From positions 16,100 to 80,099 of the IMG/VR virus record IMGVR_UViG_3300015263_001568: 64,000 bases of DNA, one strand, 5' to 3'. Made by a program: the position numbers and the translations under genes. Within the stretch, counting starts at the first letter, position 1; the number at the start of each line of letters is the position of its first letter. This stretch comes from a virus. The notes beneath the pieces are model-generated. The model was not told the origin of the DNA. It made no database searches and worked only from the letters and a program-made list of their open reading frames with translations. Positions 1,377 through 64,000 of the stretch are shown here, in pieces.

Positions 1377-2212
1377 CCTTCGTACTTCCGCAAAATGTCT
1401 TGTATGGACGACTTGAACTCGCTTACGCGGCCAAGTAGCAAGTCCGTCAAGTTGATTTCGTGGTTGTATTTGTTGGATTTGAACACACCGGTTAGCGTGT
1501 GGATGTCGCCAGGATTAAGCTGCCGACGTTCGGCGAGCGCATCCAAGTAAGCAGCGCTCAATCGATAGCTCTCGGTCACCGAGCCCGTACCATGATCACT
1601 AGCTGCTATAGACTTGCAGAGGTCGTCTAGCGCTTCGCCTAGACCGTCGGCTTTAGGCACAGGCACAATGGCATAACCGAAATATTCTGTGTATGGGTCT
1701 TGGCGCAGCTTGAAAAACACACCGCCATCGTTGGCTCGAAGCAGACTCTGGATCTTGCGATTCGGGCTGCTGGATGGCTTGTCGGTAGACCACCAGCATC
1801 CGACGAAGACCATGCCTTCAAACTTCAAGCCACGATGCAGCGGCTTTTCCTTGCCCTTGTACGAGTGGCGCTCCAATCGAACGTCGCCCGTGTCTTTGTC
1901 CTTTTTCCAGCGAAAGCCTGGAGGAGGATTATCCTCAATTTCACGGATCAGCTCGGTCACTACATCGCCTACCAGCATGCCAGTTGTAGCCAGCATGCGG
2001 CAGACTTGGAGCTTCAGTTCTTCAGGAATGTAGGGGTGCTCTGCTTGGCGCACCGGAACGTTGCAGCTTAAATTTTCAAGCCACTCGATGACCCTTTCCC
2101 GTGCCAAGCCTAGCTTGTATATCCACGGAAAAATCATCGTCGCCAGGACGTGCGCAATATCGCGCGTCCCGGCTTCCCGGTACACTGCTCCGGCGTATCG
2201 AATACGTAGCAT
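1373..2212 (-). CDS. Hypothetical protein, 279 residues
   Basis: No recognised domain. The protein is mixed alpha/beta with a helical first third (about 20-90), a central strand-rich segment (about 95-190, including FEGMVFVGCWWSTDK) and a helical C-terminus. It is the second of four tightly packed genes ending in the tail-spike-like gene, and overlaps the next gene by four bases. It may be a structural or assembly protein, but nothing in the sequence proves this. Confidence 0.5.
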   Translation of the reverse strand: MLRIRYAGAVYREAGTRDIAHVLATMIFPWIYKLGLARERVIEWLENLSCNVPVRQAEHPYIPEELKLQVCRMLATTGMLVGDVVTELIREIEDNPPPGFRWKKDKDTGDVRLERHSYKGKEKPLHRGLKFEGMVFVGCWWSTDKPSSSPNRKIQSLLRANDGGVFFKLRQDPYTEYFGYAIVPVPKADGLGEALDDLCKSIAASDHGTGSVTESYRLSAAYLDALAERRQLNPGDIHTLTGVFKSNKYNHEINLTDLLLGRVSEFKSSIQDILRKYEG

Positions 2213-30439: not shown

Positions 30440-30943
30440 TTGAGCCCGCGTATCGCCATCTCGACTACTGGCTACCCCGTCAAGACGGGTGTGGCAACGG
30501 AGATACAGGTTGGTAGCCTCCGTCACCTTCTACAAGCCGCGGAGAGCCTCGCTGAGCAGCCCTACCGGCTTGTGGCTATCTACCCCTTTGGCCAACCTCG
30601 AAAAGCCGTATACGACGTCCTAGACAGCCTGGAGAAGTCCCTTTGCTCTGCCAAGGTGCTGGTGGTCTGCCGGCACGGCGCGCAGGCCATAGTGCCCGAC
30701 TTCCTTCAGCCGCACCAACGGCTCCGGCGGCCAAACGGGCACATCGATGTCATGGTCCACGTTGACCGTGACTTGGCGTGGGAGCCGCCCACGAATCTTT
30801 CGCTCGACATCCATCCGACGACAGGGCGATTCAGCCGCTGGGCTATTCAACAAGGCTTGGTGCCGATCGTTCTGCGCCGGATAACGTCTGTTCAAAAGTG
30901 CAAGGACCTCTACAACCTTCTAACCGCTGAGGCAGCTCTATGA
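30440..30943 (+). CDS. Hypothetical protein upstream of ribonucleotide reductase
   Basis: The start is taken as TTG at 30440 because AAGGAG lies nine bases upstream; the frame is open to 30389. The 167-residue protein looks alpha/beta (YRLVAIYPFGQPRKAVYDVL, VLVVCRHGAQAIVPDF) with conserved-looking His/Arg positions. It overlaps the reductase start by four bases (ATGA-type), implying translational coupling. No family was recognised. Confidence 0.55.
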   Translation: MSPRIAISTTGYPVKTGVATEIQVGSLRHLLQAAESLAEQPYRLVAIYPFGQPRKAVYDVLDSLEKSLCSAKVLVVCRHGAQAIVPDFLQPHQRLRRPNGHIDVMVHVDRDLAWEPPTNLSLDIHPTTGRFSRWAIQQGLVPIVLRRITSVQKCKDLYNLLTAEAAL

Positions 30944-33900: not shown

Positions 33901-36900
33901 TACGGAGATAAGCATCAGCTAGCCGACACATTCGTAGGCTACGTGCAAGACTTGGTCGGGCACGACAAGGACTATAATCCACAGTACAACATCACAGGGT
34001 ACACGGTTGAGGCGCGCGATCTGGTAACCATTCAATCCGAACGCCTCTACCAAATGCTGCACGAGTTTGGAATCACGGAAGACACCAAGCTGCGCGTGCC
34101 GAAGATCGTGCAGCGTGGCACCGCTGACATGCAGCGCGGGTTCCTTCAGGCGCTGTTTGATGCGGATGGCTCAGTTCAGGGGTCAAACAAGAATCCTACG
34201 ACAGTCATTCGGCTGACCTCTATCTCGGATGACTTGTTAATCGGTGTACAGCAGCTTTTGTTGAACTTCGGCATCGCTTGCCGCATCTACTGGGAACGCC
34301 GACCTGCCGGCTACCGTAAACTGCCGGATGGCAAGGGGGGCTTGAAGCGCTACTGGTGCCAGGCGTATCACGAGCTAGAAATCTCAAAAGCAAATCTGCA
34401 AGTGTTTGCGGACGAAATCGGGTTCCTCCGTGATGTCCACCAAGGTAAGCTACGAACGCGCCTTGCCGCCTACATCCGACCACCACAGGCCGAAAAGTTC
34501 ACTGCACGCGTGTTCAGAATCGAAAGCGATGGTGTAGAGAAGGTCTACGACGTCACCGTTCACAACACCCACAGCTTCGTAAGTAGTGGAATTTGCTTAG
34601 CAAATTGCGGTGAGCAGAGTTTACCAGCCAACTCGGTTTGTAACTTGGGTCACATCAATTTAGCACAGTTTGTTCGTGCCTCCAGTGAAAATTTCCCAAC
34701 CAGCTCCCGCACCAGCGAAGACGCGCAGCGAGCCTTCAATCTGCCGCACTTTAGGGACGTCGTAGCAACGTGCGTTCGTTTCCTCGACAACGTGATTGAT
34801 GTCGAGAATTTCTTTATCCCTGCCGTCGAAGAACGCCAACGTGCTGAACGCCGTGTTGGCCTTGGCATTCTTGGCTACGGAGAGCTGCTAGTACGTCTTG
34901 GGCTTCGCTATGGATCTGACGAGGCGGTCGACTTCACGCACTGGCTTTTCCAGCAGCTCGCTGAAGCCAGCTATAGAGCGTCTGTTGACTTGGCAAAGGA
35001 CCGTGGTGAATTTCCGCTATTTGATGCTGAGAAGTTCCTCCAGTCTGGCTTCATGAAGGGCATGCCGTCAGAAGTACGCGACGCAATACGCGAGCACGGT
35101 ATTCGCAACGTCACATTGAATACGATCGCGCCAACGGGTTCCGTGGGCACCGCGGTTGGCACCACTACAGGCATCGAACCCTATATTGCCTTGAATTGGC
35201 TAGCCCGTAGTCGCGTTGGTGAAGCAGCGGAAAAAGCCAACGTGATGGAAAAGCTGGAAGAGAAATTCGGTGAGCGTAGCAATTGGCCCGACTACTTCGT
35301 AACCATCGCCAACATCACGCCATCGGAGCACGTCAGAACGCAAGCAGCAGCGCAGCGTTGGATTGATTCCTCCATCTCCAAGTGCGTTACCGGAGATACC
35401 CTGATAGCGACAACGGACGGACTTATCCGTATTGCATCGCTGCACCAAGGGGAAGCGGCCGACAGTTTCAGAGATGCAGAGCTAGAAGTGGCTTCGGTAG
35501 GACCGAATCAGAAAACGTCTGCCTTCTATTACGGCGGACCTAGGACGGTGAAGAAGGTAGTCCTTCATTCTGGTCATACCGTGAAAGGCACGGAAAATCA
35601 TCGACTGCTTGTCGGCACAGTAGACGGTCTGCGTTGGGTAAGGATGGATCAAATACAAGAAGGCGATCTAGTAGCCGCCCGTTATGGCGCGGATATTTGG
35701 TCATCGCAGCCGTCAAAATTTGCTGACTTCTCCCCAAGCCAAAAATATGGAAATCAGAAGTCCGTTAAGCACCCGATTGAGATGACTGAGGACTTGGCCT
35801 GGCTTCTGGGTGCCTACGCGGCCGAGGGCCATACTACACAATCCACTTGGACAATCACCATCACAAACTCAGTAGAGGCGGTGCTACAAAAGGCCGTAGC
35901 TGTCTGGGAATCAGAATTTGGCGTTGCTGCACGCATAACTCGACAGAGCGGGAAATGCCCTGGTGTAGAAGTCGCCTCAAAAGAAATCGTAGAATTCTTT
36001 GACTACCTTGGGTGTGGCCATAGATCGAACGAAAAGCGGATTCCGGAGGTGGTACTACGCTCTCCAAAACCGATGGTTCTAGCATTTCTACAAGGTCTGT
36101 TTTTGGATGCCTACACTACTGATGGCACGCTAACAAAATGGGCCATCTGCCTAAATTCCAATGGCATGTTGGATGACCTACAAGCGATCCTTACCAACTT
36201 GGGTGTTATTCACAGCCGAATCTCCAAGTACAACCCTGACTACGACAAGCATTATGACGAAGTGTACGCCTGTGGATTAGACGCGCAGAAGCTCATGTCC
36301 ATGGTGCCGTTCATGGAACCGGACAAGAAGGCACGCGCGGACGCCATTCTAGCAAAAGACCTTAGTAGCTGTATCAACAAAGCAGACATCGTGCCTGTTG
36401 ACCGCCGTGCTTTGCATGAACTGATTCCACATGGGAAACGGAAAGCCTTCGGCGCTGCGCTACGAAATGTGAATACTACGTTCCCAAGCCGGCATACGAT
36501 TGAACGGTTTGCCGCAGCGTACCCAAACGCGCTACCAGATTACGTGAGAACCATCTTGGACAGCGACCTGCATTTCAGCCCCGTGATGTCGATTGCGGAC
36601 GACGGTGTGCAGGAAGTTTTTGACCTATCCGTTCCTGACAACCATGCTTTTGTAGGAAATGGGATCGTAAACCACAACACGGTCAACCTACCGCAGAGCG
36701 CTACCATAGAGGACGTGAGCGAAGCCTACCTGGAAATGTACCGCCAAGGTTGCAAAGGCGGAACGGTATATCGTGACCGCTCACGCGATCGGCAGGTGCT
36801 CTACACTCTCGATGAACAGCCGGCAATCGTCGAAGAGCTTACCACTGCGGAATTTGAAGAAGCAGCGCCTGAAGGGTGCCTGCGCCCGCGGCTGTCTGTC

Positions 36901-37545
36901 GGCATCGCGCCATTGTTCACGCAAGACACGCCGGTCGGGCATATCCATGTTGCCATTCGGCATCATCCTGACAATCATCAACCGTACGACATTTTCGTCG
37001 TGAGTGGCAAAGGCAACGTCGGCGCTGATGTGCAGGCATTGGCACGATTGATGTCGATGATCATGCGGTGGCCCAACAACGCACGCATCAATCAGACCAC
37101 GCGACTGGAAATGATTCATCATCAGCTGCAAGGGATTGTCGGCCACGGCCAAGTGGGCTTTGGCCCCAATGCTGTCGTCAGCTTGCCCGATGGTATCGCT
37201 CGGTCCATCCGGCGATACCTCGAAGGTGAGTACCCGCAAACTGTACCGGCCGATACACTTGACCCCGCCCTGAAGACTGTTTTGGCTAAGCTGATACAGC
37301 ATCAAGGCAAAGACACCACGCTAGAAGCCATCCTGAGCCTTCTGGAGGCGTCGGCGAGCAACAACAATGGGATGGCCCCAATAGAGCTGACGTCCGCTGA
37401 CGGCGCCTCTGAGGCGCTGCATTGGGACGTGCCGAACGACTTCAGCTTCCCCTACGACATGTGCCCTAGCTGTGGGCGGACGACGCTGCTACGGATACCT
37501 GGTAAGTGCGCAGATTGTAAGGAATGTGGATATTCTGCGTGCTAA
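30940..37545 (+). CDS. nrdJ: Class II (adenosylcobalamin-dependent) ribonucleotide reductase with three inteins
   Basis: Reduces ribonucleotides to deoxyribonucleotides. The 2201-residue precursor contains about 970 extein residues once the three inteins (residues 248-680, 857-1222, 1482-1913) are removed. Class II features: FNCYVLP with the first active-site Cys, NPCGEQSLP with the thiyl-radical Cys, GCKGGTVYRDRSR, a TSCPD-type domain near the end (GHIHVAIRHHP...VGFGPNAVV) and a C-terminal zinc ribbon (CPSCG...CADCKECGYSAC). An SH3-like insert lies at residues 25-85. Class I C-terminal tyrosines are absent. It is the only nucleotide-metabolism gene in the window. Extein junctions appear intact. 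Confidence 0.9.
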   Translation: MIQATYQQRIMLDRYAQKDPHAKPKEGDLVIVKMTRSFSLDGEEITSRELGQITEVTNGGGPARYTVELENEIVADLDRSRVEVIVEKTPEDIWQRLANGICKAEFLYLSNPPDSLAWQHIQYQLDQAVLPDQWKPIREFRDKVYSALSRNEFIPAGRIQVGLGREDLTLTLFNCYVLPRPEDSRHGITRRWGEMFEIFARGGGIGFDVSSMRPAGAPVAKVSGRSSGAISWMEQWSQVTGEVEQGGCFSGNTRIATTKGLIRAEDLANRIDAGAPHCVYTHSRPPRHVTHVFRNGQKRFFRVTTKRGYEIEVTGDHKMGVLKEGRIETVPLKHLSVGDNVLLLLPKCQFPEKSAVELSAIDYEKPKMSTTLNEDVRFPITLNGKLAYVLGYMYGNGSVIMGKKVTWSSPKGISMSVPTSREDIACKLQDYILDCFGVVAEMEPGDGACVNVKLYSRIVVEWLNTNGLLKKKAADIRVPEQIFHAPETVVSSFVSGYFDADGSDRGIKGGYGFDSISKGMLQDVQKILASFGIAAKLRPEDRSSTGWSTLYRLSVTGPVFKERFMDFARWSMKAQRHTSRRDTNMYPMEAFKSCQVDPKLYKGLVAISYDVVSYAAVSRVLDRAGDEGLGGSEQAAKMDALLNVLPDAIDSIEDVGMMDAFDFEVDEVHMLSGDGFYTSNSRRGATLFGIAPWHPDVERFIEVKSERSAFRMSGDELLQSLNPEIMEQFGAQLRKIFVGKEDAASISRSKDLIKNANISVLFTEAFMDAVERDDYWDFVFPDTSDPEYDAIWHGDIEAWRALGKPVIHYGTKKARDLWYRLIDRAWASGEPGVLFVDRMNEMSNSWYYAPIECTNPCVTGDSLIYTSRGLITVDDLMAERTQPQYLVDSRFGYEPTFSEGTKFWCSGEKPIYRLETKEGYTIRATADHKIMTSRGWVQLAKLKEGDKVHIANRGGAFGKEGTLEFGRVLGWFIGDGYFTGEKAILDFYGDKHQLADTFVGYVQDLVGHDKDYNPQYNITGYTVEARDLVTIQSERLYQMLHEFGITEDTKLRVPKIVQRGTADMQRGFLQALFDADGSVQGSNKNPTTVIRLTSISDDLLIGVQQLLLNFGIACRIYWERRPAGYRKLPDGKGGLKRYWCQAYHELEISKANLQVFADEIGFLRDVHQGKLRTRLAAYIRPPQAEKFTARVFRIESDGVEKVYDVTVHNTHSFVSSGICLANCGEQSLPANSVCNLGHINLAQFVRASSENFPTSSRTSEDAQRAFNLPHFRDVVATCVRFLDNVIDVENFFIPAVEERQRAERRVGLGILGYGELLVRLGLRYGSDEAVDFTHWLFQQLAEASYRASVDLAKDRGEFPLFDAEKFLQSGFMKGMPSEVRDAIREHGIRNVTLNTIAPTGSVGTAVGTTTGIEPYIALNWLARSRVGEAAEKANVMEKLEEKFGERSNWPDYFVTIANITPSEHVRTQAAAQRWIDSSISKCVTGDTLIATTDGLIRIASLHQGEAADSFRDAELEVASVGPNQKTSAFYYGGPRTVKKVVLHSGHTVKGTENHRLLVGTVDGLRWVRMDQIQEGDLVAARYGADIWSSQPSKFADFSPSQKYGNQKSVKHPIEMTEDLAWLLGAYAAEGHTTQSTWTITITNSVEAVLQKAVAVWESEFGVAARITRQSGKCPGVEVASKEIVEFFDYLGCGHRSNEKRIPEVVLRSPKPMVLAFLQGLFLDAYTTDGTLTKWAICLNSNGMLDDLQAILTNLGVIHSRISKYNPDYDKHYDEVYACGLDAQKLMSMVPFMEPDKKARADAILAKDLSSCINKADIVPVDRRALHELIPHGKRKAFGAALRNVNTTFPSRHTIERFAAAYPNALPDYVRTILDSDLHFSPVMSIADDGVQEVFDLSVPDNHAFVGNGIVNHNTVNLPQSATIEDVSEAYLEMYRQGCKGGTVYRDRSRDRQVLYTLDEQPAIVEELTTAEFEEAAPEGCLRPRLSVGIAPLFTQDTPVGHIHVAIRHHPDNHQPYDIFVVSGKGNVGADVQALARLMSMIMRWPNNARINQTTRLEMIHHQLQGIVGHGQVGFGPNAVVSLPDGIARSIRRYLEGEYPQTVPADTLDPALKTVLAKLIQHQGKDTTLEAILSLLEASASNNNGMAPIELTSADGASEALHWDVPNDFSFPYDMCPSCGRTTLLRIPGKCADCKECGYSAC
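31681..32979 (+). other. Intein 1 of NrdJ (433 residues, LAGLIDADG type)
   Basis: Starts with C-F-S-G-N-T-R-I (block A) and ends HMLSGDGFYTSN before Ser (extein QGG/SRRGA). Block B is VTGDHKMG. The homing-endonuclease motifs are LGYMYGNGS and VSGYFDADGS. The penultimate residue is Ser rather than the usual His, which occurs in some active inteins. Confidence 0.85.
33508..34605 (+). other. Intein 2 of NrdJ (366 residues, LAGLIDADG type)
   Basis: Starts CVTGDSLIYTSRG and ends HSFVSSGICLAN before the Cys of NP/CGE, the catalytic radical Cys of the reductase. Block B is ATADHKIM. Endonuclease motifs are LGWFIGDGYF and LQALFDADGS. The penultimate residue is Ala. Without splicing the reductase cannot work. 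Confidence 0.88.
35383..36678 (+). other. Intein 3 of NrdJ (432 residues, LAGLIDADG type)
   Basis: Starts CVTGDTLIATTDG and ends NHAFVGNGIVNHN before Thr (extein SISK/TVNLP). Block B is GTENHRLL and the end is the canonical His-Asn. The first endonuclease motif is LLGAYAAEGH; the second, LQGLFLDAYTTDG, departs from the usual F-D-A-D-G, so endonuclease activity may be weakened. Confidence 0.85.
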
Positions 37546-53002: not shown

Positions 53003-53779
53003 ATGGCTCTTAATCCTGGAGTCACTGCCCCCGGCGCAGCGGTATTCGCCAAGTACGACATGGCGCGTAGCCGCTTCGAGCACCGATGGGCATACGACAT
53101 CGAGGCCGGGGTCAACATCCTCGAAGAGGGTTCGCTGCTGGTACGCAAGGCCGGCGCGGGCACGACCGAGGTTGTGGCCCCATCTGCTGACGCTGCTGGT
53201 GAAGTGCCCCTGGGCATCGCACTACACGGCGCCATCAATGCGGTCACCTTCACCAAGGTGATCAATGCAACCGTTCCGGCGGTTGCTCCGCTGACCATCA
53301 ACACGGGTCTGACCAACATCACGACCTACGGTGCGGCTCCGCAGGTGCTGGCATACGACAACACCAGCGCCGCGTATCGTGTGACGGTGGTTGGTGCACC
53401 TGGTGCCAACCAGGTCGGCGTGACGCTCGCCAGCGGTCTGCTGACGGCAGATGCCGGTCTGGCCGGCCACAGCATGACCTTCACCATCCAGTGGACCCTG
53501 ACGGCCCTGGAGTCGCAGCTTCTGCTGCGCGAGTCTCACATCAACCGCGGTGCTGAGGCCCTTTTCGGCCAGATCATCGTGGGCTGGGGACAGTGCGAGG
53601 TGTTCACCACGATGTACGACGCCGGTGCGACGTATGCCGTGGGCGATGTTCTCGACCTCGGTGCGGGTGGCATCTTCACCAGCACTGCCCGTGCTGTGAA
53701 CAACGTTGCATTTGGCCGCGTGACCAGCGTTCCCACAACCGACGACCCCTACCTGGGCGTCTACTTCATCACGCCGTAA
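53003..53779 (+). CDS. Decoration-like virion protein beside the capsid gene
   Basis: The 258-residue protein is Gly/Ala/Thr/Val-rich with few charges, predicted to be mostly beta. It carries segments such as GDVLDLGAGGIFTST and GRVTSVPTTDDPYLGVYF, the pattern of head-decoration or fibre proteins. It directly precedes the major capsid gene, shares its GC-rich, highly biased codon use, and follows the structured leader, so it is probably made in large amounts. A tail-tube identity cannot be excluded. Confidence 0.6.
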   Translation: MALNPGVTAPGAAVFAKYDMARSRFEHRWAYDIEAGVNILEEGSLLVRKAGAGTTEVVAPSADAAGEVPLGIALHGAINAVTFTKVINATVPAVAPLTINTGLTNITTYGAAPQVLAYDNTSAAYRVTVVGAPGANQVGVTLASGLLTADAGLAGHSMTFTIQWTLTALESQLLLRESHINRGAEALFGQIIVGWGQCEVFTTMYDAGATYAVGDVLDLGAGGIFTSTARAVNNVAFGRVTSVPTTDDPYLGVYFITP

Positions 53780-53792
53780 GGAGAAGCTGAGC

Positions 53793-55019
53793 ATGTCCGT
53801 ATTCGCTAAGAAGAAGACGGCCACCGCTGCTCCCCGGCTGGTGGACCGACAGGGTAATGATGTGGCGGATGGATTTTCCTTCCGCCGTAATCCCCGCAGC
53901 GGCTCGATCATGCGCGCCGGTACGGCTGGCAGCCTCGCCCCGCAGGGCGGCTCCCGCCTCGTTGGCGCCAATGGCGAGTACAATGCGTACAGCAAGCAGC
54001 AGCTCGTCGAAATCATCGATGGTCTGCTGTCGCAGGCAGCGAGCGGCGACGTTCGCCTCGACACGGGCGTTAGCCAGATCATGCAGCAGCGCATGGCGGC
54101 TCCCCGTGGCGTGACGATGGCGCCGAGTAACACCTGGAACCAGGAAGGTCACCTGGTTCACGCCGCGCTCGCGGATCGTTTCCCCGAGCACGGTGGTCCG
54201 TTCCACGTCCTGGGTGAAGTCTTCACGGACCAGATTTCGGAGACGATGGGCCGGCTGGGCTTCACCAACAAGATTTTCGCGCAGCAGGACATTCCTGAGC
54301 AGGGCACGGCGCGCGTTCGTGTTCGCCAGAAGGATGTCGTGGCGTGGGTGATGATGGCCGACGGTCACACCGCCGAGTCCAAGGTTCGCCAGCGCTACGT
54401 CTACCCGAAGGCGTTCGACATCAATGCCCTCATCATGATCTACGAGGCCGACATCCACGAAGCCGGCAGCGCGATCATCGAGGACAAGTACAACGACGCG
54501 CTCGAACAGACGATGGTCCGTGAGGACAACATCTCCAAGTTCCTGCTCGACCAGGCGGCGCCCTCGACCAACGACGTGATCGCGTTCAACGCCTTCACTC
54601 CGTCGGTCTTCGCCGAGCTGCGCGACCAGGTGTGGCGTTGGAGCCTCCCGGTTCCGCACGCCCTGATGAGCCGCGATCTGTGGACTGACCTCTTTGCCGA
54701 TGCTGACTGGCAGCGTTGGTACTCGCCGATCGAGAAGCACGAGTACGCCGTCGAAGGCAAGCTCGGCAAGCTCGCCGACGTCGAGATCATCACCGACGGG
54801 TTCATCTACGACACCTTGCGGGTGCTTCAGCCCGGCGAGGTGTACTTCCTTTCCGCTCCGGCCACACTGGGCATGAAGTCCAACTTCACGGCTCTCCAGA
54901 GCGAGATGATCAACCAGCACATGCTGGGTCGCAATGCGCGCGGCTGGTTCCTCGCGCAGCGTGAGGCACTCACCCTGATCAACTCCCGCGGTGTGTCCAA
55001 GGGCCAGAAGGTGGTCTAA
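53793..55019 (+). CDS. Major capsid protein
   Basis: The 408-residue protein has features of HK97-type capsid proteins of large phages: a basic, Gly/Ser-rich N-terminal arm (1-85), a long E-loop-like and helical middle (HLVHAALADRFPEHGGPFHV, ISETMGRLGFTNKIF), a P-domain-like segment and a C-terminal A-domain with ALMSRDLWTDLFAD and GEVYFLSAPATLGM. GC content and codon bias are the highest in the window, as expected for the most abundant virion protein. A terminator follows. The fold assignment is by pattern; no other gene in the window competes for this role. Confidence 0.75.
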   Translation: MSVFAKKKTATAAPRLVDRQGNDVADGFSFRRNPRSGSIMRAGTAGSLAPQGGSRLVGANGEYNAYSKQQLVEIIDGLLSQAASGDVRLDTGVSQIMQQRMAAPRGVTMAPSNTWNQEGHLVHAALADRFPEHGGPFHVLGEVFTDQISETMGRLGFTNKIFAQQDIPEQGTARVRVRQKDVVAWVMMADGHTAESKVRQRYVYPKAFDINALIMIYEADIHEAGSAIIEDKYNDALEQTMVREDNISKFLLDQAAPSTNDVIAFNAFTPSVFAELRDQVWRWSLPVPHALMSRDLWTDLFADADWQRWYSPIEKHEYAVEGKLGKLADVEIITDGFIYDTLRVLQPGEVYFLSAPATLGMKSNFTALQSEMINQHMLGRNARGWFLAQREALTLINSRGVSKGQKVV

Positions 55020-55153: not shown

Positions 55154-55498
55154 ATGAAATACCCCAACAGCATCATGGTCAAAGGCCACCGTTACGAAAA
55201 GGTTACGGCAGCCGAACCTGGAACTGCGTTGTCAAATGCTGCGCTTGGTGCCGCCGAGGATTTGTCAGCCATTGCTGTGTTGGCAGCTGCGCTGGAGAAG
55301 CAGATGCAAAACCTAGGTGACATGCCACATCATACACCGCAGATAAAAGCGCTCTCAACGCTAACATTGAGAGCCGCTACGCATACCGTTAAATCGCTAG
55401 AATCCGAAATCTCCGGTATTTTGAAGCAGCTTTCAGACATGAAGAAACGCGCTATGGATGTAGCGGACACGCTTCGCCACCAGATGCCGCAGCGCTGA
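55154..55498 (+). CDS. Small protein with N-terminal I-x-x-x-G-x-x-Y motif
   Basis: The 114-residue protein starts MKYPNSIMVKGHRYEKV, carrying IMVKGHRY at residues 7-14, then is wholly helical (ALSNAALGAAEDLSAIAVLA; LKQLSDMKKRAMDVADTLRH). GGAAGG precedes the ATG. It is the first gene after the capsid terminator and the first of a run of motif-bearing genes. It could be an internal virion or scaffold protein, but that is inference. Confidence 0.55.
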   Translation: MKYPNSIMVKGHRYEKVTAAEPGTALSNAALGAAEDLSAIAVLAAALEKQMQNLGDMPHHTPQIKALSTLTLRAATHTVKSLESEISGILKQLSDMKKRAMDVADTLRHQMPQR

Positions 55499-55514
55499 TT
55501 AAAGGGATAATTGG

Positions 55515-57866
55515 ATGGCAAACGTACCCCGACGTGGCGGAATTCAGACGCAGCTCATGGTCCAGAAAAATCTTGAAAAAGATATTGACTGGGCACGTAA
55601 GCTACAAGAGCAGGAAGAAGCTCAGCGTCTGAAGGATGAAGAAAAGGCCAAAAAGAAAGAAGAGAAGGAACGCCAAAAGGCGGAGAAAGGACCCGGGATG
55701 CTATCCAAGTTGTGGAAGAAGCTGAAGGGCTCTGCCGACCTAACACTCGACAACCTACGCCGCGCCTTCCCTAAGCTTTCCGCCGTCGATGCGGAGCGCC
55801 TCTTCGATGACATCCAAGACGCCCAGGACTCCGCAGAAGTGTTGGCCACGCTACAGTTCGCCAACCGGATGCTGGCAGGTCATGGCGTAGAAGGCATGCG
55901 GGCTGAAGGGGTCACGTTGGGCCAGCCCTACAACGACCAAGTAGCCCTCTACGTCAACATGGGCGACGACAGCGCGCAGACGCTCCTCTTTGGAACCGAG
56001 GACGGTCGCTGGTACCTGATGTCCTATGCGGACTTCGAGGGGCAACAGGGGTCTCAGGAGAGCCAGGAGAGGCACGCTGCGCGAGAAGCCTTCATCCACC
56101 AAAATCCAGACGGCATCTCGGTCGAGATGTTTGAAGACGATACACTCTGCTTGGTGCACCAAGCGGCTGACTTGGAAGACGCCGAGCTGATGGCTCAGGA
56201 ATGGGAAGCCTCTGGGATCCCCGAAGCGGACACACCACCATCATTGGAGTTCGAGGAATTCGAGGAAAACAACATGATACCTGCCAGCATTCGTTACCAC
56301 GGCGCGCGCTACGAGTTGGTCGAAGCCAAAGTCCAAGGATGGTTCGGCTTCCAGCAAGATCCCAAGACGCTCACCGAAATGTGGATTAACGCTCACAAGG
56401 ATGCTGACGTTGTAGGCGCTGTAGATGAAGCGTTCGGCTTATCCGGCATGAAGTCTACAGAAGCGAATCCACTGCGTGAGAAAATCATGCAGGTGGCAGC
56501 CATTCCCACCGAGATGGCCATGACGGCCATTTCCAAAGCGTTCGCCAAAGCGTCTCGGTTGCCCAATCCGTCGATGGCCAGCCAGCTCGACAAATATGGC
56601 GTGTCGATCAACCTGATTGACGATTCCATCGGCGTGGTCGGCGCCGCTGCTCTGTTGCAAGCGCTGGGCAAGGACGCTAGCCAATATGTGGCGGCTGCCA
56701 AGGATGCCATGGAAGAGTGGGTCGCCAGCTACGGTGAATTGTCGGCAAAGTCCGACAAGGTGAAGACGATCGACCCAATCAAGCTGACGCAGCAGTTCAA
56801 TGACGCCATCGACAGCGCGCTGCAAAAGTCCACCAAGGATGTGGAGAAGCGCCTGCAAGCGTTGAAGCCGGCTGGAGAAGCCAAGGCCGCTTCGTCGGAG
56901 CGCATCATGTACCGTGGTGCCGTGTACGTGCGCACGGCCGTCAGCTATTGGTTCGGCATGGACGACGAGATGGAACAGCACATGGGGATCGACGAAATCG
57001 AACTCCCCGATGGCGTTCCCGAGTTGTCCGCGGCAGACCAAGAAAAGTTGCGAGAATCCTACCGCGACAAGCTGCGCAGCTATGCACCGGATCCGGAGTT
57101 TTTCCTTGACGTGGTAAAAAGTGCCGTAGACCGCGCCCTCACGGCGATGTATGAAGAAGCAGGCGCAACCCCTTCGAAGCATTACCTGATTAAGAACATC
57201 GGCGATGACTATGCCCATGAGGAATGGTTCGGCTTCATCGGCGGTGTACCCGAGTACAACTTCAAGGACGAGTACGGCCCAGAATTGGAAGCGGACCTTG
57301 GGATGTCGGAGGAAGACATCTGGAGCGTGCTAGACAATGCTGCTGATGAAGGCGCCACTGCCGAAGCAGATGCGCTTGAAGAAGCTGTCTACGATGCGTT
57401 CAAGCAGGCAAAGGCTGATATTCTTGAAGAGGCCAAAGAAATGGCTTCGATGTCCGATGAAGATGAGGACGACGTCTATGAAGACCCGCGGCAGACCAAG
57501 CTGAAGTTCGAGGGTCGCGCAAAGTCCCGGCGAGTACGGCACGCTGCACCGGCTGGGTATGTGGTGGAAATGTTCGAGGAACGCCGTGATCCGGAAGAGC
57601 CGGAAGACTACGAACAGCTACAGTATGCTGAACCCCAGCATTACGACACGATCGCAGACATCGCGCGCGACTGGACTAAGGGAAACTGGGAGGGCCTGTG
57701 GCGTGAAGACATCGCAGAAATGACCGATGGAGTTGCCATCTATAGCTATTTGGACGAGGACTACCACTTGCCATACGATCGACATTACCAGTTGTTCATC
57801 ACGCGAGAAGATGGACAGCCGCTTTCAGAAGACGAGTACGACCAGATTGACAAAGCGTTCTCCTGA
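55515..57866 (+). CDS. Modular protein with two I-x-x-x-G-x-x-Y motifs and a duplicated C-terminal domain
   Basis: The 783-residue protein reads as four modules. Module A (1-250) has a Lys/Glu-rich coiled coil (20-60). Module B starts at M254 with IRYHGARY (259-266). Module C starts near 464 with IMYRGAVY. Module D (681-783) matches, without gaps, the last 103 residues of the next gene at about 58 of 103 positions. Modules B and C each begin at an in-frame ATG (56274, 56907) preceded by GAGGA or GGAG at good spacing, so shorter products are possible. Function unknown; a virion or host-interaction role is suggested by its place. Confidence 0.65.
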   Translation: MANVPRRGGIQTQLMVQKNLEKDIDWARKLQEQEEAQRLKDEEKAKKKEEKERQKAEKGPGMLSKLWKKLKGSADLTLDNLRRAFPKLSAVDAERLFDDIQDAQDSAEVLATLQFANRMLAGHGVEGMRAEGVTLGQPYNDQVALYVNMGDDSAQTLLFGTEDGRWYLMSYADFEGQQGSQESQERHAAREAFIHQNPDGISVEMFEDDTLCLVHQAADLEDAELMAQEWEASGIPEADTPPSLEFEEFEENNMIPASIRYHGARYELVEAKVQGWFGFQQDPKTLTEMWINAHKDADVVGAVDEAFGLSGMKSTEANPLREKIMQVAAIPTEMAMTAISKAFAKASRLPNPSMASQLDKYGVSINLIDDSIGVVGAAALLQALGKDASQYVAAAKDAMEEWVASYGELSAKSDKVKTIDPIKLTQQFNDAIDSALQKSTKDVEKRLQALKPAGEAKAASSERIMYRGAVYVRTAVSYWFGMDDEMEQHMGIDEIELPDGVPELSAADQEKLRESYRDKLRSYAPDPEFFLDVVKSAVDRALTAMYEEAGATPSKHYLIKNIGDDYAHEEWFGFIGGVPEYNFKDEYGPELEADLGMSEEDIWSVLDNAADEGATAEADALEEAVYDAFKQAKADILEEAKEMASMSDEDEDDVYEDPRQTKLKFEGRAKSRRVRHAAPAGYVVEMFEERRDPEEPEDYEQLQYAEPQHYDTIADIARDWTKGNWEGLWREDIAEMTDGVAIYSYLDEDYHLPYDRHYQLFITREDGQPLSEDEYDQIDKAFS

Positions 57867-57876
57867 GAGGCTCAAG

Positions 57877-58440
57877 ATGTACAAGCACATTCGCTACCAC
57901 GGCCGTCTGTACCAAGCTGTATCGAGCGGCTGGCTCTACGCCTTGATGCACAAGTACCCCGGCGCCTTTGACCTGTTGGAGCCCTACCTCGACAATCCAC
58001 CCACCGATGAAGTCGAGATCCAGCAGTTGACACAAGAAGCGCGCGACTGGCAGGAAGCGTGGGATGCTGGGCGTAAAAATGTGATCTGGCAGCCGCGCAC
58101 TTCACAAAAGTCTCGCCACGCTGCTTCTGGCTATTTGGTGGAGGTTGTCGAAGAGCGGCGCGATCTGGAAAATCCAGAAGACTACGAGCAAATTCAATAC
58201 ACCGATCCGGAACACTTCGACACCATCGAAGACATCATCGAAGTCTGGACTCGTGGAAACTGGGTTGGAATGTGGGGGCAAGACATCTTCGAGCAGAACG
58301 GCAATTTGGCTATCGTGAGCTACGATGCTGAAGACTATGGCCAGCCATACGTTAGTCACTTCATGATGTTCGTTGAGCGCGAAGACGGAAAGCCAATGTC
58401 TGACTCCGAGATGGTCCAGTTTGAAAAAGCCTTCTCCTGA
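57877..58440 (+). CDS. Paralogue of the C-terminal module of the preceding protein
   Basis: The ATG at 57877 follows AGAGG and begins MYKHIRYHGRLYQAV, with the motif at residues 5-12. Residues 85-187 align without gaps to the C-terminal 103 residues of the 55515 protein (shared GYxVE, EERRD, PEDYEQ, GNW, EREDG/TREDG and KAFS). Just before that domain both proteins have K-S-R...H-A-A. The frame is open upstream to 57727, but that part overlaps the previous gene. Function unknown. Confidence 0.65.
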   Translation: MYKHIRYHGRLYQAVSSGWLYALMHKYPGAFDLLEPYLDNPPTDEVEIQQLTQEARDWQEAWDAGRKNVIWQPRTSQKSRHAASGYLVEVVEERRDLENPEDYEQIQYTDPEHFDTIEDIIEVWTRGNWVGMWGQDIFEQNGNLAIVSYDAEDYGQPYVSHFMMFVEREDGKPMSDSEMVQFEKAFS

Positions 58441-58451
58441 AAGGAAGCACG

Positions 58452-58769
58452 ATGAAAACTAAAAAGAAAGAACAGAAAGAGCGGCTTTACTCTGTGCGCT
58501 GCTCATACACTGTTGATGTGGTCGTAAGCGCCGCCAGTAGCGATGCCGCGCGAAAGGTTGCGGAGAAGCACGCCGCCGGATCTGAATATGACGCAGACAG
58601 AGAGCAAAAGAGCGGAAAATGGGTAGCGGAAACCGCAGTACAAATAGAGTCTCTACAGGAATTGCCAGCATCGTGGTACCCAGAGGATCAACCATACACA
58701 AAGTACGGAAATCCGTATGACCCTGAGTATCCATACAGTGAGCCTACAATCGAAGAATACCTAAAGTGA
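58452..58769 (+). CDS. Small protein, tandem paralogue of the next gene
   Basis: The 105-residue protein has a Lys-rich start then LYSVRCSYTVDVVVSAASSD, an alternating beta pattern, and ends with D-Q-P-Y and E-P-T-I-E-E-Y-L. The next gene begins LYDVECTVSIHLVVESANIG and has D-Q-P-Y and N-T-I-G-E-I-L at matching places, so the two arose by duplication. AGGAAG precedes the ATG. Confidence 0.55.
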   Translation: MKTKKKEQKERLYSVRCSYTVDVVVSAASSDAARKVAEKHAAGSEYDADREQKSGKWVAETAVQIESLQELPASWYPEDQPYTKYGNPYDPEYPYSEPTIEEYLK

Positions 58770-58781
58770 TAGATACCTGCT

Positions 58782-59471
58782 ATGCCACTCTACGACGTTG
58801 AATGCACAGTTTCGATTCATCTTGTGGTGGAGTCTGCCAATATTGGCGCTGCTAAGGAAATTGCGGTGCAATCTGCCGAGACTGAATATGATGATCTACG
58901 TGTCGTAGACTGGTACGTCAGTGGTGCGCATCGTATTCGTGGCGCTAGCGATATTGGGCCTACCTGGAACATGGGTGACCAGCCCTATGATCGCCCTGGT
59001 GGGTACAAGTCTGAAAATACCATTGGCGAGATTTTGGGAAGAAGGTCTGCACACTATCGTCGCGCCGCGGATGACCCCTACGGTCAAGGTCTCGACCTGA
59101 AAAATCTGGAAGGTGAAAAGGGCGGACCCGCCACCACACCAGGATTTTATGGCCGCTATCCAGCCATCATGGATGCACTGTCCAATGCGTGGGTGGAGCT
59201 TGAAGCTGTACAGCATCCGGCCATGGATTGGTCGGAATTCGAGAAGCGCTACATGCTGAAAATCCGGCAGCTGGATGACGTCATCGAAGCCGGATCTGCG
59301 GATGCTCTCAAAGGTCGCCTCGTACCGTACTTGGTGGCGATGGGATATGATAAAGACGCAGCTGCACGTGTTGAACCGGAAGTCATCGACTTTGTAGAGA
59401 CGCTGAAGACGGAGGAAGCCACCGAACGCGAGCGTGACGAATACGAATATCTCAAGGACATGGGGAGATGA
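58782..59471 (+). CDS. Two-domain paralogue of the preceding small protein
   Basis: Residues 1-85 resemble the whole 58452 protein (see that entry). Residues 86-100 (RRSAHYRRAADDPYGQ) look like the basic, Ala-Ala junctions that precede added modules in neighbouring proteins. Residues 105-229 form a separate helical domain (ALSNAWVELEAVQHPAMDW; RLVPYLVAMGYDKDAAARVE). It overlaps the next gene as ATGA. Function unknown. Confidence 0.55.
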   Translation: MPLYDVECTVSIHLVVESANIGAAKEIAVQSAETEYDDLRVVDWYVSGAHRIRGASDIGPTWNMGDQPYDRPGGYKSENTIGEILGRRSAHYRRAADDPYGQGLDLKNLEGEKGGPATTPGFYGRYPAIMDALSNAWVELEAVQHPAMDWSEFEKRYMLKIRQLDDVIEAGSADALKGRLVPYLVAMGYDKDAAARVEPEVIDFVETLKTEEATERERDEYEYLKDMGR

Positions 59472-60223
59472 CACTCACCCTCAGCATGGCGCTTTTGATG
59501 GTCCTCTGCATCTACGCCATCAAGTGGCTCGGCGCACGACAGCAAGCATCGCACCTACCACATTTGCTGGTGCTGGGTAGCTTTGGTAGCATTCTATTGT
59601 TAGGCGTGCTGGCGTTGACGTTCATCTACGACCGTTACGAGCAGACGGATAAAGAGCGCATCGGTGCCGTGAAAAAAGCAGTGGTCAAGTCACCGTGTCC
59701 GCAATATGGGCAGGTGGCTATCAAGTACCGTGGACAGACATGGTGCACGGATGAGATGCAAGTCACGCATCTCAAAAATGGCCAAGTTAGTCTGCTGCTC
59801 ACACCCTCAGGTAGCCCACCTGACGCCACCTTGTTCAAGCTGAACATTGCACGCAACAAGCCGCCACACCTTCAGGGTATAGCGGCTGCTGAACCAGAGC
59901 GCAAAGACCGCTCGGGCTTGCTGAATCGCTACGCTGAGATTGTGTACTTCTTGGCGTTGGTGCTGGGCGTGCTTAGTAGCTTCTACATGAGCTGGTACGA
60001 AGAGCGCAAGAAAAATCCCGAACTGAAATTTGACCACAACCAAGTTGTTGTGTCGTTCATTCTAGCCGTGTTGGTGTACGTCAGCGTCTACAGTACCATC
60101 GAGAAGGACAAGGGCATTGCCACAACCGGATTGTTGGCTTGCTTTCAGAACGGGTTTTTCTGGCAATCCATCATGAAAAACCGTATGGGCGGCGAGTCTA
60201 AAGAAGAAGGAAAGGCAGCGTGA
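59468..60223 (+). CDS. Membrane protein with four to five predicted segments
   Basis: Hydrophobic stretches lie at about residues 2-22 (LTLSMALLMVLCIYAIKWL), 32-54 (LVLGSFGSILLLGVLALTFI), 157-175 (EIVYFLALVLGVLSSFYM) and 192-209 (VVVSFILAVLVYVSVYS), with a fifth weaker one near 220. Between the second and third is a soluble loop of about 100 residues containing two Cys and IKYRGQTW, a near match to the recurrent motif. No known holin or transporter pattern was recognised. Confidence 0.6.
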   Translation: MTLTLSMALLMVLCIYAIKWLGARQQASHLPHLLVLGSFGSILLLGVLALTFIYDRYEQTDKERIGAVKKAVVKSPCPQYGQVAIKYRGQTWCTDEMQVTHLKNGQVSLLLTPSGSPPDATLFKLNIARNKPPHLQGIAAAEPERKDRSGLLNRYAEIVYFLALVLGVLSSFYMSWYEERKKNPELKFDHNQVVVSFILAVLVYVSVYSTIEKDKGIATTGLLACFQNGFFWQSIMKNRMGGESKEEGKAA

Positions 60224-60543
60224 TGAAAAAGCACACTATCATGGTCAACGGACATCGCTACGTTAGTTCTGCGTATGATTCCCTCGGTGACGTAGTAATG
60301 GACATTTTTGTTTACCTCACAGAAGAGGAATTAGAAAAAGTCGCACGCAAATGGGCGGCTAGCATAGCAGACATTGAAATTGTGATGTTTGAATGGATGG
60401 ACCAGCACCGCAGTGGGGCAAACGACCTGTTCGACATCCTCCGCGAAGTGCTTACTAGCAGACGCCGTAAAGAAATCTTGGAGCGCTCCAATATTTCTGA
60501 GTACAGCGCCGACCTACCGCAGCAATTTTTGCACAAACCGTAG
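60223..60543 (+). CDS. Small protein with N-terminal I-x-x-x-G-x-x-Y motif
   Basis: The ATG at 60223 overlaps the upstream stop as TGATG. The 106-residue protein starts MKKHTIMVNGHRYVSS, with the motif at residues 6-13 almost identical to that of the 55154 protein (IMVKGHRY). The rest is helical (ELEKVARKWAASIADIEIVM). Function unknown. Confidence 0.55.
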   Translation: MKKHTIMVNGHRYVSSAYDSLGDVVMDIFVYLTEEELEKVARKWAASIADIEIVMFEWMDQHRSGANDLFDILREVLTSRRRKEILERSNISEYSADLPQQFLHKP

Positions 60544-60549
60544 GTAGTT

Positions 60550-60972
60550 ATGGCTGATCCAGTTAGCATTGGCACGTTGTTGGCCGCTCTAGCCGCCGGT
60601 GGAAGTGCTGGCGTCGCCGCGCTGCGAAAACCAGAAGCGGCATTACCCCAAGCACCTCTTGAGCAAATCGCGCTCGTCAACGATACCGTCCTGCACTTCA
60701 AGAGCATTTTCCAAAGCCTGACCAACGAGGAAGTGGCGGCTACGGTGAAGGCTGTGGAGCGCATTGCGGAAATCGTAAACCGTGAGGACCCCGACAATCC
60801 TGGACAGAAATTGGTCTGGAAGTCAACGTCCATGCAGAAAATTCTGCGGCAAATGGCGGAAAACGACGAGCAGCAAACGCGCATCTTGAAGTCGCTTGCT
60901 GATTCCGTATCCGCCATTAATGAACGCCTACAATACCTAGAGATTTTCGTCAAAATGCAGCAGGGCAAGTAG
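60550..60972 (+). CDS. Hypothetical protein with hydrophobic N-terminus and coiled coil
   Basis: Residues 4-25 (PVSIGTLLAALAAGGSAGVA) are hydrophobic and Gly/Ala-rich and could insert in a membrane or pack in a virion core. Residues 45-140 are helical with coiled-coil features (QTRILKSLADSVSAINERLQ). Six bases separate it from the preceding gene. Function unknown. Confidence 0.5.
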   Translation: MADPVSIGTLLAALAAGGSAGVAALRKPEAALPQAPLEQIALVNDTVLHFKSIFQSLTNEEVAATVKAVERIAEIVNREDPDNPGQKLVWKSTSMQKILRQMAENDEQQTRILKSLADSVSAINERLQYLEIFVKMQQGK

Positions 60973-60973
60973 A

Positions 60974-61399
60974 ATGGCGAAAGCACCTCCTGGACCGCTG
61001 AGTGAAACCGCAGCCCAGCCCGTTGGCATGATGGAAATGATCGACTCGGAAATTGCAGAACGGCGTGCCATCAAATATGCCGAATGCAACAACGATGAGA
61101 TGCTGCACGCTGTCAACGGTCGCGGACGTCTGCTGAACGCGTTACTTCAGCAGACCACCAATTTGAGAAAAATCACGACTGCCAGCATGCCGAAAATATC
61201 AGCGGACATGGCAGTGCGCTTAAAGAGTGCCTTCGAGGCCGCAGACGCGAAGAAGGCGGAAGACGTCACACTGGACACGTTGGAAGCTAGCGTGACGCAC
61301 ATTCATGAAACGGTAACTCAAACATCATCCGACGACGATTTTCAAGAGCAGCTGTCCGCCCTGAAGCGTGATGCTGCATTGGCAGAAGAAAGCGAATGA
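60974..61399 (+). CDS. Helical hypothetical protein, 141 residues
   Basis: Mostly helical (AERRAIKYAECNNDEMLHAV, GRGRLLNALLQQTTNLRKIT) with an acidic end. The ATG follows the previous stop by one base. It overlaps the next gene as ATGA. No known motif. Confidence 0.5.
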   Translation: MAKAPPGPLSETAAQPVGMMEMIDSEIAERRAIKYAECNNDEMLHAVNGRGRLLNALLQQTTNLRKITTASMPKISADMAVRLKSAFEAADAKKAEDVTLDTLEASVTHIHETVTQTSSDDDFQEQLSALKRDAALAEESE

Positions 61400-61974
61400 A
61401 ACGCATTGCTCGCATACGCCATTGTCGCGACGAAGACCTAGACCCGCATCATGAGCTGCCGGTGGAAGATCAGCGGTGGTGTCTCTACAGTGATGATGGA
61501 AAGACATTGCGCGGGCGGCATAAAAATCGCCGTGATGCTAAAGACCAGGATCGCAACCTGCGAGGAAGATGGGGCATGAAAAAGACCAGCGTTACCGATC
61601 CACGCAAAGCCATTGCTGACAATGTAAAAGCCATTTCAGCTGATATTTTCAAGAGCACAAAGCGCATCGATGCCGACATCGGAGGCATGGTCACACTGGT
61701 GAAGCAATTTCCCAAGGCCATTACCGATGCGGAAAAGAAGCAGCTGGTAGAGGCACACAATGTCCTTCAGGATGCCATGGACAAGCTGGAACAGAGTGCG
61801 CAGCAGCATGAAGAAATATCCGTTACGTTAAGCAATACTCCAGCTCCAGCTGTGCAGGATGATGGTAATGGTACTGTGGAACAGAAGGCTGCCAGCTGGA
61901 AGCGTCGTCCAGTGCGCCGACCTGCACCTGAAATGATCCGCGTCAACGGCGCAATCTACCGTCGTCTGCGCTAG
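61396..61974 (+). CDS. Modular protein: WCLYxxDGK segment plus C-terminal I-x-x-x-G-x-x-Y motif
   Basis: The 192-residue protein has EDQRWCLYSDDGKTLRGRH at residues 24-42, followed by a basic stretch, then a helical region (about 60-140), a short Pro/Thr linker and K-A-A-S-W before the terminal IRVNGAIYRRLR (residues 181-192). The first segment is repeated in the next large ORF (EQKWCLYTHDGKKLLGRH), and W-C-x-Y-x-x-D-G-K patterns are common in phage proteins of unknown role. Here the recurrent motif is at the C-terminus, not the N-terminus. Confidence 0.6.
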   Translation: MKRIARIRHCRDEDLDPHHELPVEDQRWCLYSDDGKTLRGRHKNRRDAKDQDRNLRGRWGMKKTSVTDPRKAIADNVKAISADIFKSTKRIDADIGGMVTLVKQFPKAITDAEKKQLVEAHNVLQDAMDKLEQSAQQHEEISVTLSNTPAPAVQDDGNGTVEQKAASWKRRPVRRPAPEMIRVNGAIYRRLR

Positions 61975-61983
61975 GAGTACGAT

Positions 61984-62382
61984 ATGCACCCTCGAACAAT
62001 CAAGCACCAGGGCAAGGTTTACGTTCTCGATCGCAAGGCAACGGCGAAGCTTCGTCGCAAAGCCGCTACATCGGAGGAAGTTCTTGATGAGCTTCTAGCT
62101 GAAGTACGCGATGCCAGCGATAAACTTCACGGACGCAAGGACAAGGACAGCCTTGTGGATGGCATCGAGTTCCTGAAAAACGCAGTGGATAATACCACTA
62201 GCAGTATTCAGGAGATTATTGACGAGGCTGAGCGATATATCTCTGACCTAGAAGACGCGTCGGATGCTCTGGACAATCTGTTGTTCGATCTTAGTTCCGA
62301 CGACGTGTTCGACTTCAATGACCCTGACGACGTAATTGACGTGCAGGATCAAGCTTACGATGCGGTAGAGAAGTTTGGGTAG
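61984..62382 (+). CDS. Small acidic protein with N-terminal I-x-x-x-G-x-x-Y motif
   Basis: AGGAG precedes the ATG at 61984. The 132-residue protein starts MHPRTIKHQGKVYVLDRK (motif at residues 6-13), then A-T-A-K-L-R-R-K-A-A-T-S before a helical acidic domain (DELLAEVRDASDKL; ISDLEDASDALDNLLFDLSS). This is the same layout as the neighbouring motif-bearing proteins. Function unknown. Confidence 0.6.
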   Translation: MHPRTIKHQGKVYVLDRKATAKLRRKAATSEEVLDELLAEVRDASDKLHGRKDKDSLVDGIEFLKNAVDNTTSSIQEIIDEAERYISDLEDASDALDNLLFDLSSDDVFDFNDPDDVIDVQDQAYDAVEKFG

Positions 62383-62388
62383 GTTGAC

Positions 62389-64000
62389 ATGCTATTCAAC
62401 CTGTCTGATATTGGCGTTCCGGAAGCTGAGCAGCTCAGCTGGCTCACCGATATCTTTGCGTCATATCGAGAGCTGACCTACCAGTCGTCGATTCCAAGTG
62501 CGTTTGACATGCTGTACGAAAATGCGCTGGACAAGAATTTTGACCGGCGTGTTGATGTTCCAGCTTCAGACCTACACACGTTGGAGGCCGCGATACGAGA
62601 TGCGCTTTCCAACCGTGAACTTAGTCTGGATGAAGCATGGGATGTGGTGCAGACCGCTGAAAATTCCGATTATCCCGTGTACGATCCGCAAACGCTACGC
62701 GATGCTGAAGAGCTGTTGCAGGCAGGTGACGACCCCTCCTATTTTGGAGAATTTCAAGGCCCCCTAGACAAGCTCACCAAGCTTCTACGGCAGCACAGCG
62801 GATCCACCATCCGCACCGCGGTTATCAAGAAGTGTCGGAAGCAAGACATGGATGACCGTCCTGCCAGTGAGCAAAAATGGTGCCTCTATACCCATGACGG
62901 CAAAAAGCTACTTGGACGGCATCCAACAGAAGAAGCCGCTAAAAAGCAAGAGCGCGCCATTCACGTGCACAAAGGGTTTTTGAACGAAGGAGAAAAAATG
63001 CGGACAAAACATGCCGGCTACGATACCGATGAGTCGGTCGCCGACGAGCTGAAGCTGTACATGGATAACGAATCGGACCTGTATGACAACAAGTTGCGTT
63101 CCATCTATCCTGGTCTGGTGCGCAAGCTCGCCGCAGGACGTTACAACTCGGAGATGGCTGTGGCTGCCTTTGCCTATTTGGTAGAGCGCGGAGCTAAGAA
63201 GTACGCGCGCGAGTTCGGCACTTCTGAGCGTGAGTGGAGCCAAATGTTCCCCAAGAACATTCGCCAGATGGTAGCTACTGAGTACCGCGACGAATTTGAA
63301 TCAGAGGTCCGGAATCACGAGTACGATTTCGAGCAGTGGGTGCCGAAAAAGTACCAAGGTGTTGACTTGGCCGACATGTTGAAAAAGCGGTCTGATCTTA
63401 CAAAAGGTGCAACAATGCGAGAGCGAACGGCAAAGAAGTGGAAGTCTCTTCCTCGTGGGTGGAACAAGGAATCCATGAAGGATTATTGGGACAGCGTTGG
63501 TGGTAGCGTGAGCAAGTGTGTCAAGGGGCTGGAAGGTACCGACATCGATGACCCAGGTGCTTTTTGCGCCAGTCTCAAGGACCGCCTAGAAGGTTCAGGC
63601 TGGCGGCACGAGAAGCGCTCCAGTGCCGCACCGAAGTACATTAAGGTGGCTGGTCGCATCTACGTAGCGGAAGGCGGTCCCATTGATGCATCCGACCACT
63701 TCGATCAGCGCAAAATGGACGAAGAAGTCGTACAGTGGGCCTGTGACGACGACGTGCTGGATTACGACGGCAACATGGCGCTCAATCTGTCGACCGAGCT
63801 GAGTAGCTACGGCTATTCCGGTCGCGACGTGTACAACTTGTTGGAAGGCGTTGGTCATGATCTTCCGGAATTCGGCAGTGACGAATGGGAAGATATGGCT
63901 AACGACTTCCTCGGTTACCCGGAGCAGTACCTCTCGGCGGATAAGCTCACCCAGAATTCCGCACTTCCATCTGGTAGCTATGCTTTCGGATGGGACCACA
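62389..64000 (+). CDS. Large modular protein, C-terminal part beyond the right edge
   Basis: An ATG at 62389 opens a frame with no stop to the window end (at least 537 residues). Modules: 1-140 helical; EQKWCLYTHDGKKLLGRH at about 167-184; from M204 (62998, preceded by AAGGAG) a helical unit with DELKLYMDNESDLYD and AVAAFAYLVERGAKKYAREF; from M343 (63415, preceded by AAGGTG) PRGWNKESMKDYWDSVGG and DDPGAFCASLKDRLEGSGW; then R-S-S-A-A-P followed by IKVAGRIY (from 63640) and a further acidic domain. The recurrence of short units suggests assembly from parts of other genes. Function unknown. Confidence 0.65.
   Translation, partial: MLFNLSDIGVPEAEQLSWLTDIFASYRELTYQSSIPSAFDMLYENALDKNFDRRVDVPASDLHTLEAAIRDALSNRELSLDEAWDVVQTAENSDYPVYDPQTLRDAEELLQAGDDPSYFGEFQGPLDKLTKLLRQHSGSTIRTAVIKKCRKQDMDDRPASEQKWCLYTHDGKKLLGRHPTEEAAKKQERAIHVHKGFLNEGEKMRTKHAGYDTDESVADELKLYMDNESDLYDNKLRSIYPGLVRKLAAGRYNSEMAVAAFAYLVERGAKKYAREFGTSEREWSQMFPKNIRQMVATEYRDEFESEVRNHEYDFEQWVPKKYQGVDLADMLKKRSDLTKGATMRERTAKKWKSLPRGWNKESMKDYWDSVGGSVSKCVKGLEGTDIDDPGAFCASLKDRLEGSGWRHEKRSSAAPKYIKVAGRIYVAEGGPIDASDHFDQRKMDEEVVQWACDDDVLDYDGNMALNLSTELSSYGYSGRDVYNLLEGVGHDLPEFGSDEWEDMANDFLGYPEQYLSADKLTQNSALPSGSYAFGWDH

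Follow-up and report, generated by a model that had tools for sequence, protein, structure and literature searches.

A short portable peptide in many unlike proteins of an uncultured giant-phage clade, clustered in the head operon and probably docking proteins into the prohead

The DNA analysed here, called the window, is a 64,000-nucleotide stretch, bases 16100-80099 of an 80,099-bp IMG/VR record (labelled G000). Two head genes without the peptide described below lie towards its end. One encodes a virion structural protein (53003..53779, +), homologous to gene 283788 of the related contig G006 (PHROG 16710). Downstream of it, the major capsid protein (MCP) gene (53793..55019, +; PHROG 2522, 2e-46) directly precedes a cluster of genes whose products carry a short peptide tag. 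The MCP shows about 28% identity to its counterparts in PaBG, Lu11, Motura and related jumbo phages.

The first gene after the MCP (CDS 55154-55498) encodes a 114-aa protein with the tag IMVKGHRY at residues 7-14 (55172..55195, +; 27.3 bits with the profile described below). It is followed by a 783-aa modular protein (55515..57866, +) with two internal tags: IRYHGARY at residue 259 (56289..56312, +; 32.5 bits) and IMYRGAVY at residue 464 (56904..56927, +; 27.7 bits). The next product, encoded from about 57877 (MYKHIRYHGRLY) to 58440, has IRYHGRLY at its N-terminus (57889..57912, +; 24.5 bits). By eye, the products of 55515-57866 and 57877-58440 appear to end in a common domain of roughly 100 aa (EERRDxExPEDYEQ...), which would be a local duplication next to the capsid genes. 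Further on, IRVNGAIY stands four residues from the C-terminus of ORF 61396-61974 (192 aa; tag at 61936..61959, +; 27.5 bits) and IKHQGKVY at the N-terminus of ORF 61984-62382 (132 aa; 61999..62022, +; 26.2 bits). The last tag, IKVAGRIY, is internal, at residue 418 of ORF 62389-64000, left incomplete by the end of the contig (63640..63663, +; 28.4 bits).

A six-frame scan with I[KRM][YHV].G..[YW] yields 10 sites in the window, against a mean of 0.245 and a maximum of 2 in 200 shuffles of the residues of the frames. All eight cores listed in the first-pass annotation are found where it placed them, and seven of them, at 24-33 bits, are members of the family. The eighth, IMVNGHRY near the N-terminus of ORF 60220-60543 (60238..60261, +), is doubtful at 4.3 bits, because its core matches but its flanks misfit. 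The near match IKYRGQTW, added to the same list, exists at 59720 rather than 59717, but with −4.9 bits it is not a member. Three further sites occur on the 80-kb record. One, absent from the earlier list, is IRYAGAVY at the N-terminus of ORF 1373-2212 (2180..2203, −), whose homologue in contig G001 retains a degenerate copy of the tag; the other two, G000:402(−) and G000:9793(−), lie outside the window and also score well with the 16-position profile.

With an MCP profile search we recovered IMG/VR loci whose MCP is 56-64% identical to that of the window, and extra related contigs came from DNA-pattern scans for the tag. We read four contigs in full: G000 itself, G001 (105,713 bp), G006 (349,793 bp) and G007 (73,299 bp). 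The many genes that they have in common show them to be one clade. The profile, iterated on these four, finds 113 sites at 9 bits or more, against one in reversed proteins. The consensus is P-x-x-I-[KR]-[YVF]-[KRN]-G-x-x-Y-x-[LR]-[AV], about 14 residues. Counting Ile as position 1, Gly 5 is found in 105 of 108 sites and Tyr 8 in 107; the other positions are Ile 1, K/R 2, Tyr/Val/Phe 3, K/R/N 4, Leu/Arg 10 and Ala/Val 11. The basic stretch with Ala-Ala noted earlier as a flank is not constant: the constant flank is Pro at −2 (78/108), and the residues after the tag are small, mainly Ala. Information in the alignment falls off beyond about −6 and +13.

The tag family is restricted to this clade. 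At a threshold of 18 bits, clade loci outside the training set contain 92 sites in 114 kb, not all independent because the loci are related to each other, and none in reversed proteins. In 86 non-clade loci (1.48 Mb), the same threshold gives 5 matches, all of one sequence, IPYKGRF[SI], in which the final Tyr is missing; by eye they look like part of NAD-dependent DNA ligase. Tags occur in every locus with an MCP identity of at least 56%, up to 23 in 20 kb, and are absent from loci at 38% or below; no family of such tags was seen near the MCP in seven sampled jumbo phages of the PaBG/Lu11/Motura type. Multi-tag contigs from the IMG/VR DNA-pattern scans all belong to this clade, single matches being mostly due to chance. 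One contig, L095, has a single good tag, the remaining genes being those of the clade. GTDB genomes contained no MCP relatives, tblastn with the consensus tag against named phages gave no credible match, and no prior description of the tag was found in open-access full text.

Three proteins of G006 on which the profile fired were dropped: an SbcC homologue and a tail-fibre-like protein (15 bits each), and the NAD synthase at 228344, whose motif we take to be native to NadE. The gene of the latter (228344-230415; Pfam 3e-62) adjoins a nicotinate phosphoribosyltransferase-like gene, recognized by eye, and the two would form a phage NAD-salvage pair.

The tag is self-contained, with no sequence shared outside the motif of about 16 residues. 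Among 108 sites, 70 are near the start or a Met, 5 stand at the C-terminus and 33 inside the chain; a T4-type targeting sequence would always be N-terminal, which the tag is not. Searched against Pfam, PHROG and NCBIfam, 82 tagged proteins show any one family in at most 3, and no library profile recurs over the motif across members. Could the motif be an ordinary β-hairpin of one globular domain, reused by chance? Its residues alternate as in a β-hairpin, and in a 383-aa family (10 sequences), the one protein family to which the hairpin model applies, strands 286-289 and 292-295 are modelled exactly at the tag. This hairpin sits in a stretch that links confidently modelled regions but is itself mostly under pLDDT 50, and a fold search of the family against the PDB and viral models returned no significant match. 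Conservation ending beyond about 16 residues, the scatter of library families, and copies at the extreme C-terminus or in tandems spaced 15-25 residues make the globular-domain reading very improbable.

At the DNA level, codon choice at the conserved residues approximates genome usage at most positions tested, an argument against a mobile DNA element, and conservation of the kind expected from a Rickettsia palindromic element is not seen. A selfish in-frame element of this type, devoid of a function for the phage, would explain how the same peptide came to many unrelated genes, sometimes in tandem; we regard it as extremely improbable, given that the peptide is conserved under free codons and that homologues of 22-58% identity keep the tag positions. 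In a family at 28-58% identity, the Tyr, Gly, Tyr and Leu of the tag are invariant columns.

The tag is portable. A tagged P-loop kinase-like protein (AAA_33) aligns to its phage relatives from residue 23-24 or so, just past the tag; with a Klebsiella phage relative the alignment extends further upstream, yet the annotated gene starts at that same point. Topoisomerase IB is tagged at its N-terminus in G001 as well as in G006 (tblastn of the G006 enzyme against phages gave no match), and a cyclic-phosphate-processing receiver protein has tags further along the chain and near the C-terminus. A 178-aa protein of G007 starts with the tag and is 48% identical to the final 179 residues of a G006 protein of 465 aa; the match begins at the internal tag of the latter, so that some internal tags, at least, mark fused tagged units. 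In the 783-aa window protein, residues 66-174 are similar to a tagged protein that is free-standing in G006; tblastn of the whole 783-aa protein against phages found no match.

Other features of the tagged proteins are two small recurring modules, CLYTHDGKxLxGRHxxxxxAxKQER and DDPGAFCASLKDRxEGxGWR, shuffled between them (window 61396-61974 and 62389-64000; G006 282311-283462 and 286991-287968), and DUF5661, present in three. A by-eye reading of one tagged domain (G007 65118, G006 260291) as ADP-ribosyltransferase-like was dropped, its model having a pLDDT of 39.6.

Tagged genes cluster in the portal-protease-MCP operon. In G006, G001 and G007, the head operon starts with the portal and two or three untagged genes, after which a small protein (about 80 aa) carries the tag. 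Next come a protein of 566-780 aa that lacks it and is rich in glutamate in G006, and the prohead protease (PHROG 18299, 7e-51 in G006), then a mixture of genes with and without tags, the structural protein, the MCP and, after it, mostly tagged genes. With genes taken as simple longest-ORF calls, which makes the counts approximate, 13 of 24 genes in this interval of G006 are tagged, compared with 34 of 470 overall (p 2e-10); the enrichment has p 1e-6 in G001, 1e-5 in G007 and 2e-4 in G000. In T4, the genes between portal and MCP are those of core, protease and scaffold proteins. The MCP, portal, protease, structural protein and 566-aa protein themselves carry no tag. Tagged genes also occur elsewhere, in a second cluster and scattered singly, and one clade contig has a tagged gene among tail genes. 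The proposal of the first-pass annotation is borne out in part: there is a short tag common to unrelated proteins beside capsid genes, and related contigs also place tags with head genes, while carriage of the tagged proteins in the virion and their cleavage are predictions. What it had named as fatal, namely that the motif belongs to a known domain or lacks such co-location in relatives, was looked for and did not occur.

A tag common to small head-operon proteins and ordinary enzymes, in ends or linkers, is best explained by a docking peptide for a common receptor. We therefore consider it probable that the motif serves as a portable docking peptide, drawing scaffold and cargo proteins into the prohead. 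The tag would lie in flexible ends and linkers and form a small β-hairpin, perhaps only once bound. During head assembly it would bring head-core proteins to the growing prohead together with cargo, such as topoisomerase IB, the P-loop kinase-like enzyme and the cyclic-phosphate-processing receiver protein. Since some thirty genes are tagged in G006, one would expect an abundant receptor that itself has no tag: we infer either the inner face of the MCP (53793..55019 in the window) or, encoded upstream of the protease, the acidic scaffold-like protein (566 aa in G006), which the basic character of the tag would suit. Cargo would then be enclosed in the head and could be injected. With so few candidate partners, the docking idea is directly testable.

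Several observations run against docking in the head: tagged genes outside the head operon, in one clade contig among tail genes, and protease sites that are not clearly enriched after the tag. LxE occurs 19 times there where 19.5 are expected and AxE 18 times where 12.2 are expected (p 0.05), although neither may be the specificity of this protease. The tag might instead tether proteins within the infected cell, to a compartment for replication or assembly, the membrane or a host factor, rather than to the virion, clustering with head genes then reflecting shared late expression. Tagged nucleic-acid enzymes (topoisomerase IB, the kinase-like protein) and tagged genes far from the head operon would fit. 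In the window, however, RecA, clamp loader, primase, UvrD-type helicase and ligase are untagged, as are the sigma-like genes, and enrichment is strongest between portal, protease and MCP; we judge an intracellular tether unlikely. Anchoring on the outside of the virion, as capsid decoration or on the tail, seems more unlikely still. The head-operon location and the tagged gene among tail genes agree with it, but enzymes such as topoisomerase IB and the kinase-like protein are unexpected on a virion surface, and tags also lie within the linkers of large proteins.

Docking into the prohead resembles systems already described. The capsid-targeting sequence (CTS) of T4 is a short, mostly N-terminal peptide of otherwise unlike internal proteins; it suffices to carry foreign proteins into the head, and the internal proteins vary strongly among relatives (PMC9026906, PMC5694885). 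The tag is likewise a short peptide common to several unlike proteins. Its sequence is unrelated, however, it also occurs C-terminally, internally and in tandem, and it marks dozens of proteins against the few of T4; LxE and AxE sites, which could mark its removal by the prohead protease, give no clear signal after it.

The MCP of tailed phages has the HK97 fold. Encapsulin cargo-loading peptides are short, stand at either end of the cargo, are encoded beside an HK97-type shell gene and bind the inner face of the shell (PMC7355545). The N- and C-terminal copies of the tag beside the MCP match this pattern. In contrast to those peptides, the tag belongs to a phage, is unrelated in sequence, is found in linkers too and occurs in far more proteins, and for it shell binding is a supposition. 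Giant phages of the SPN3US type have internal head proteins mostly with propeptides of more than 100 residues, cut at AxE (PMC5694885), and the Dar proteins of P1 are without a common consensus (PMC9024508). SPN3US-type phages and P1 (with DarB) are large and have many internal head proteins, probably targeted via N-terminal segments, as would hold for this clade, but neither has a common 14-residue tag. We assign the tag to none of these systems; by analogy, it would work like the T4 CTS and the encapsulin peptides.

A broader proposal is that one universal 14-residue hairpin tag, placed anywhere in the chain of at least some thirty scaffold and cargo proteins, serves as an address label for the head interior, and that new genes, whole enzymes included, become virion-carried by gaining it. 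We hold the case for and against this to be about evenly balanced. If the tag is a head-loading label, sequence alone would predict which giant-phage proteins of unknown function are taken into the virion; some would be enzymes that may become active immediately on entry. Phages would then have evolved a universal, position-independent cargo code separately from the T4 system, and the tag could be used to load proteins into large capsids.

The contigs hold other unusual genes. Three further, diverged MCP homologues (201946-203031, 232243-233226 and 248007-248843) coexist in the 350-kb contig G006, and G007 has a second portal-like gene (68154-69044); these are possibly vertex or minor capsid proteins, or remnants. 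In the window, a 2201-aa ORF (30940-37545) has its best match to a G006 gene over residues 1219-1484 only, at 59% identity, and may hold insertions such as inteins.
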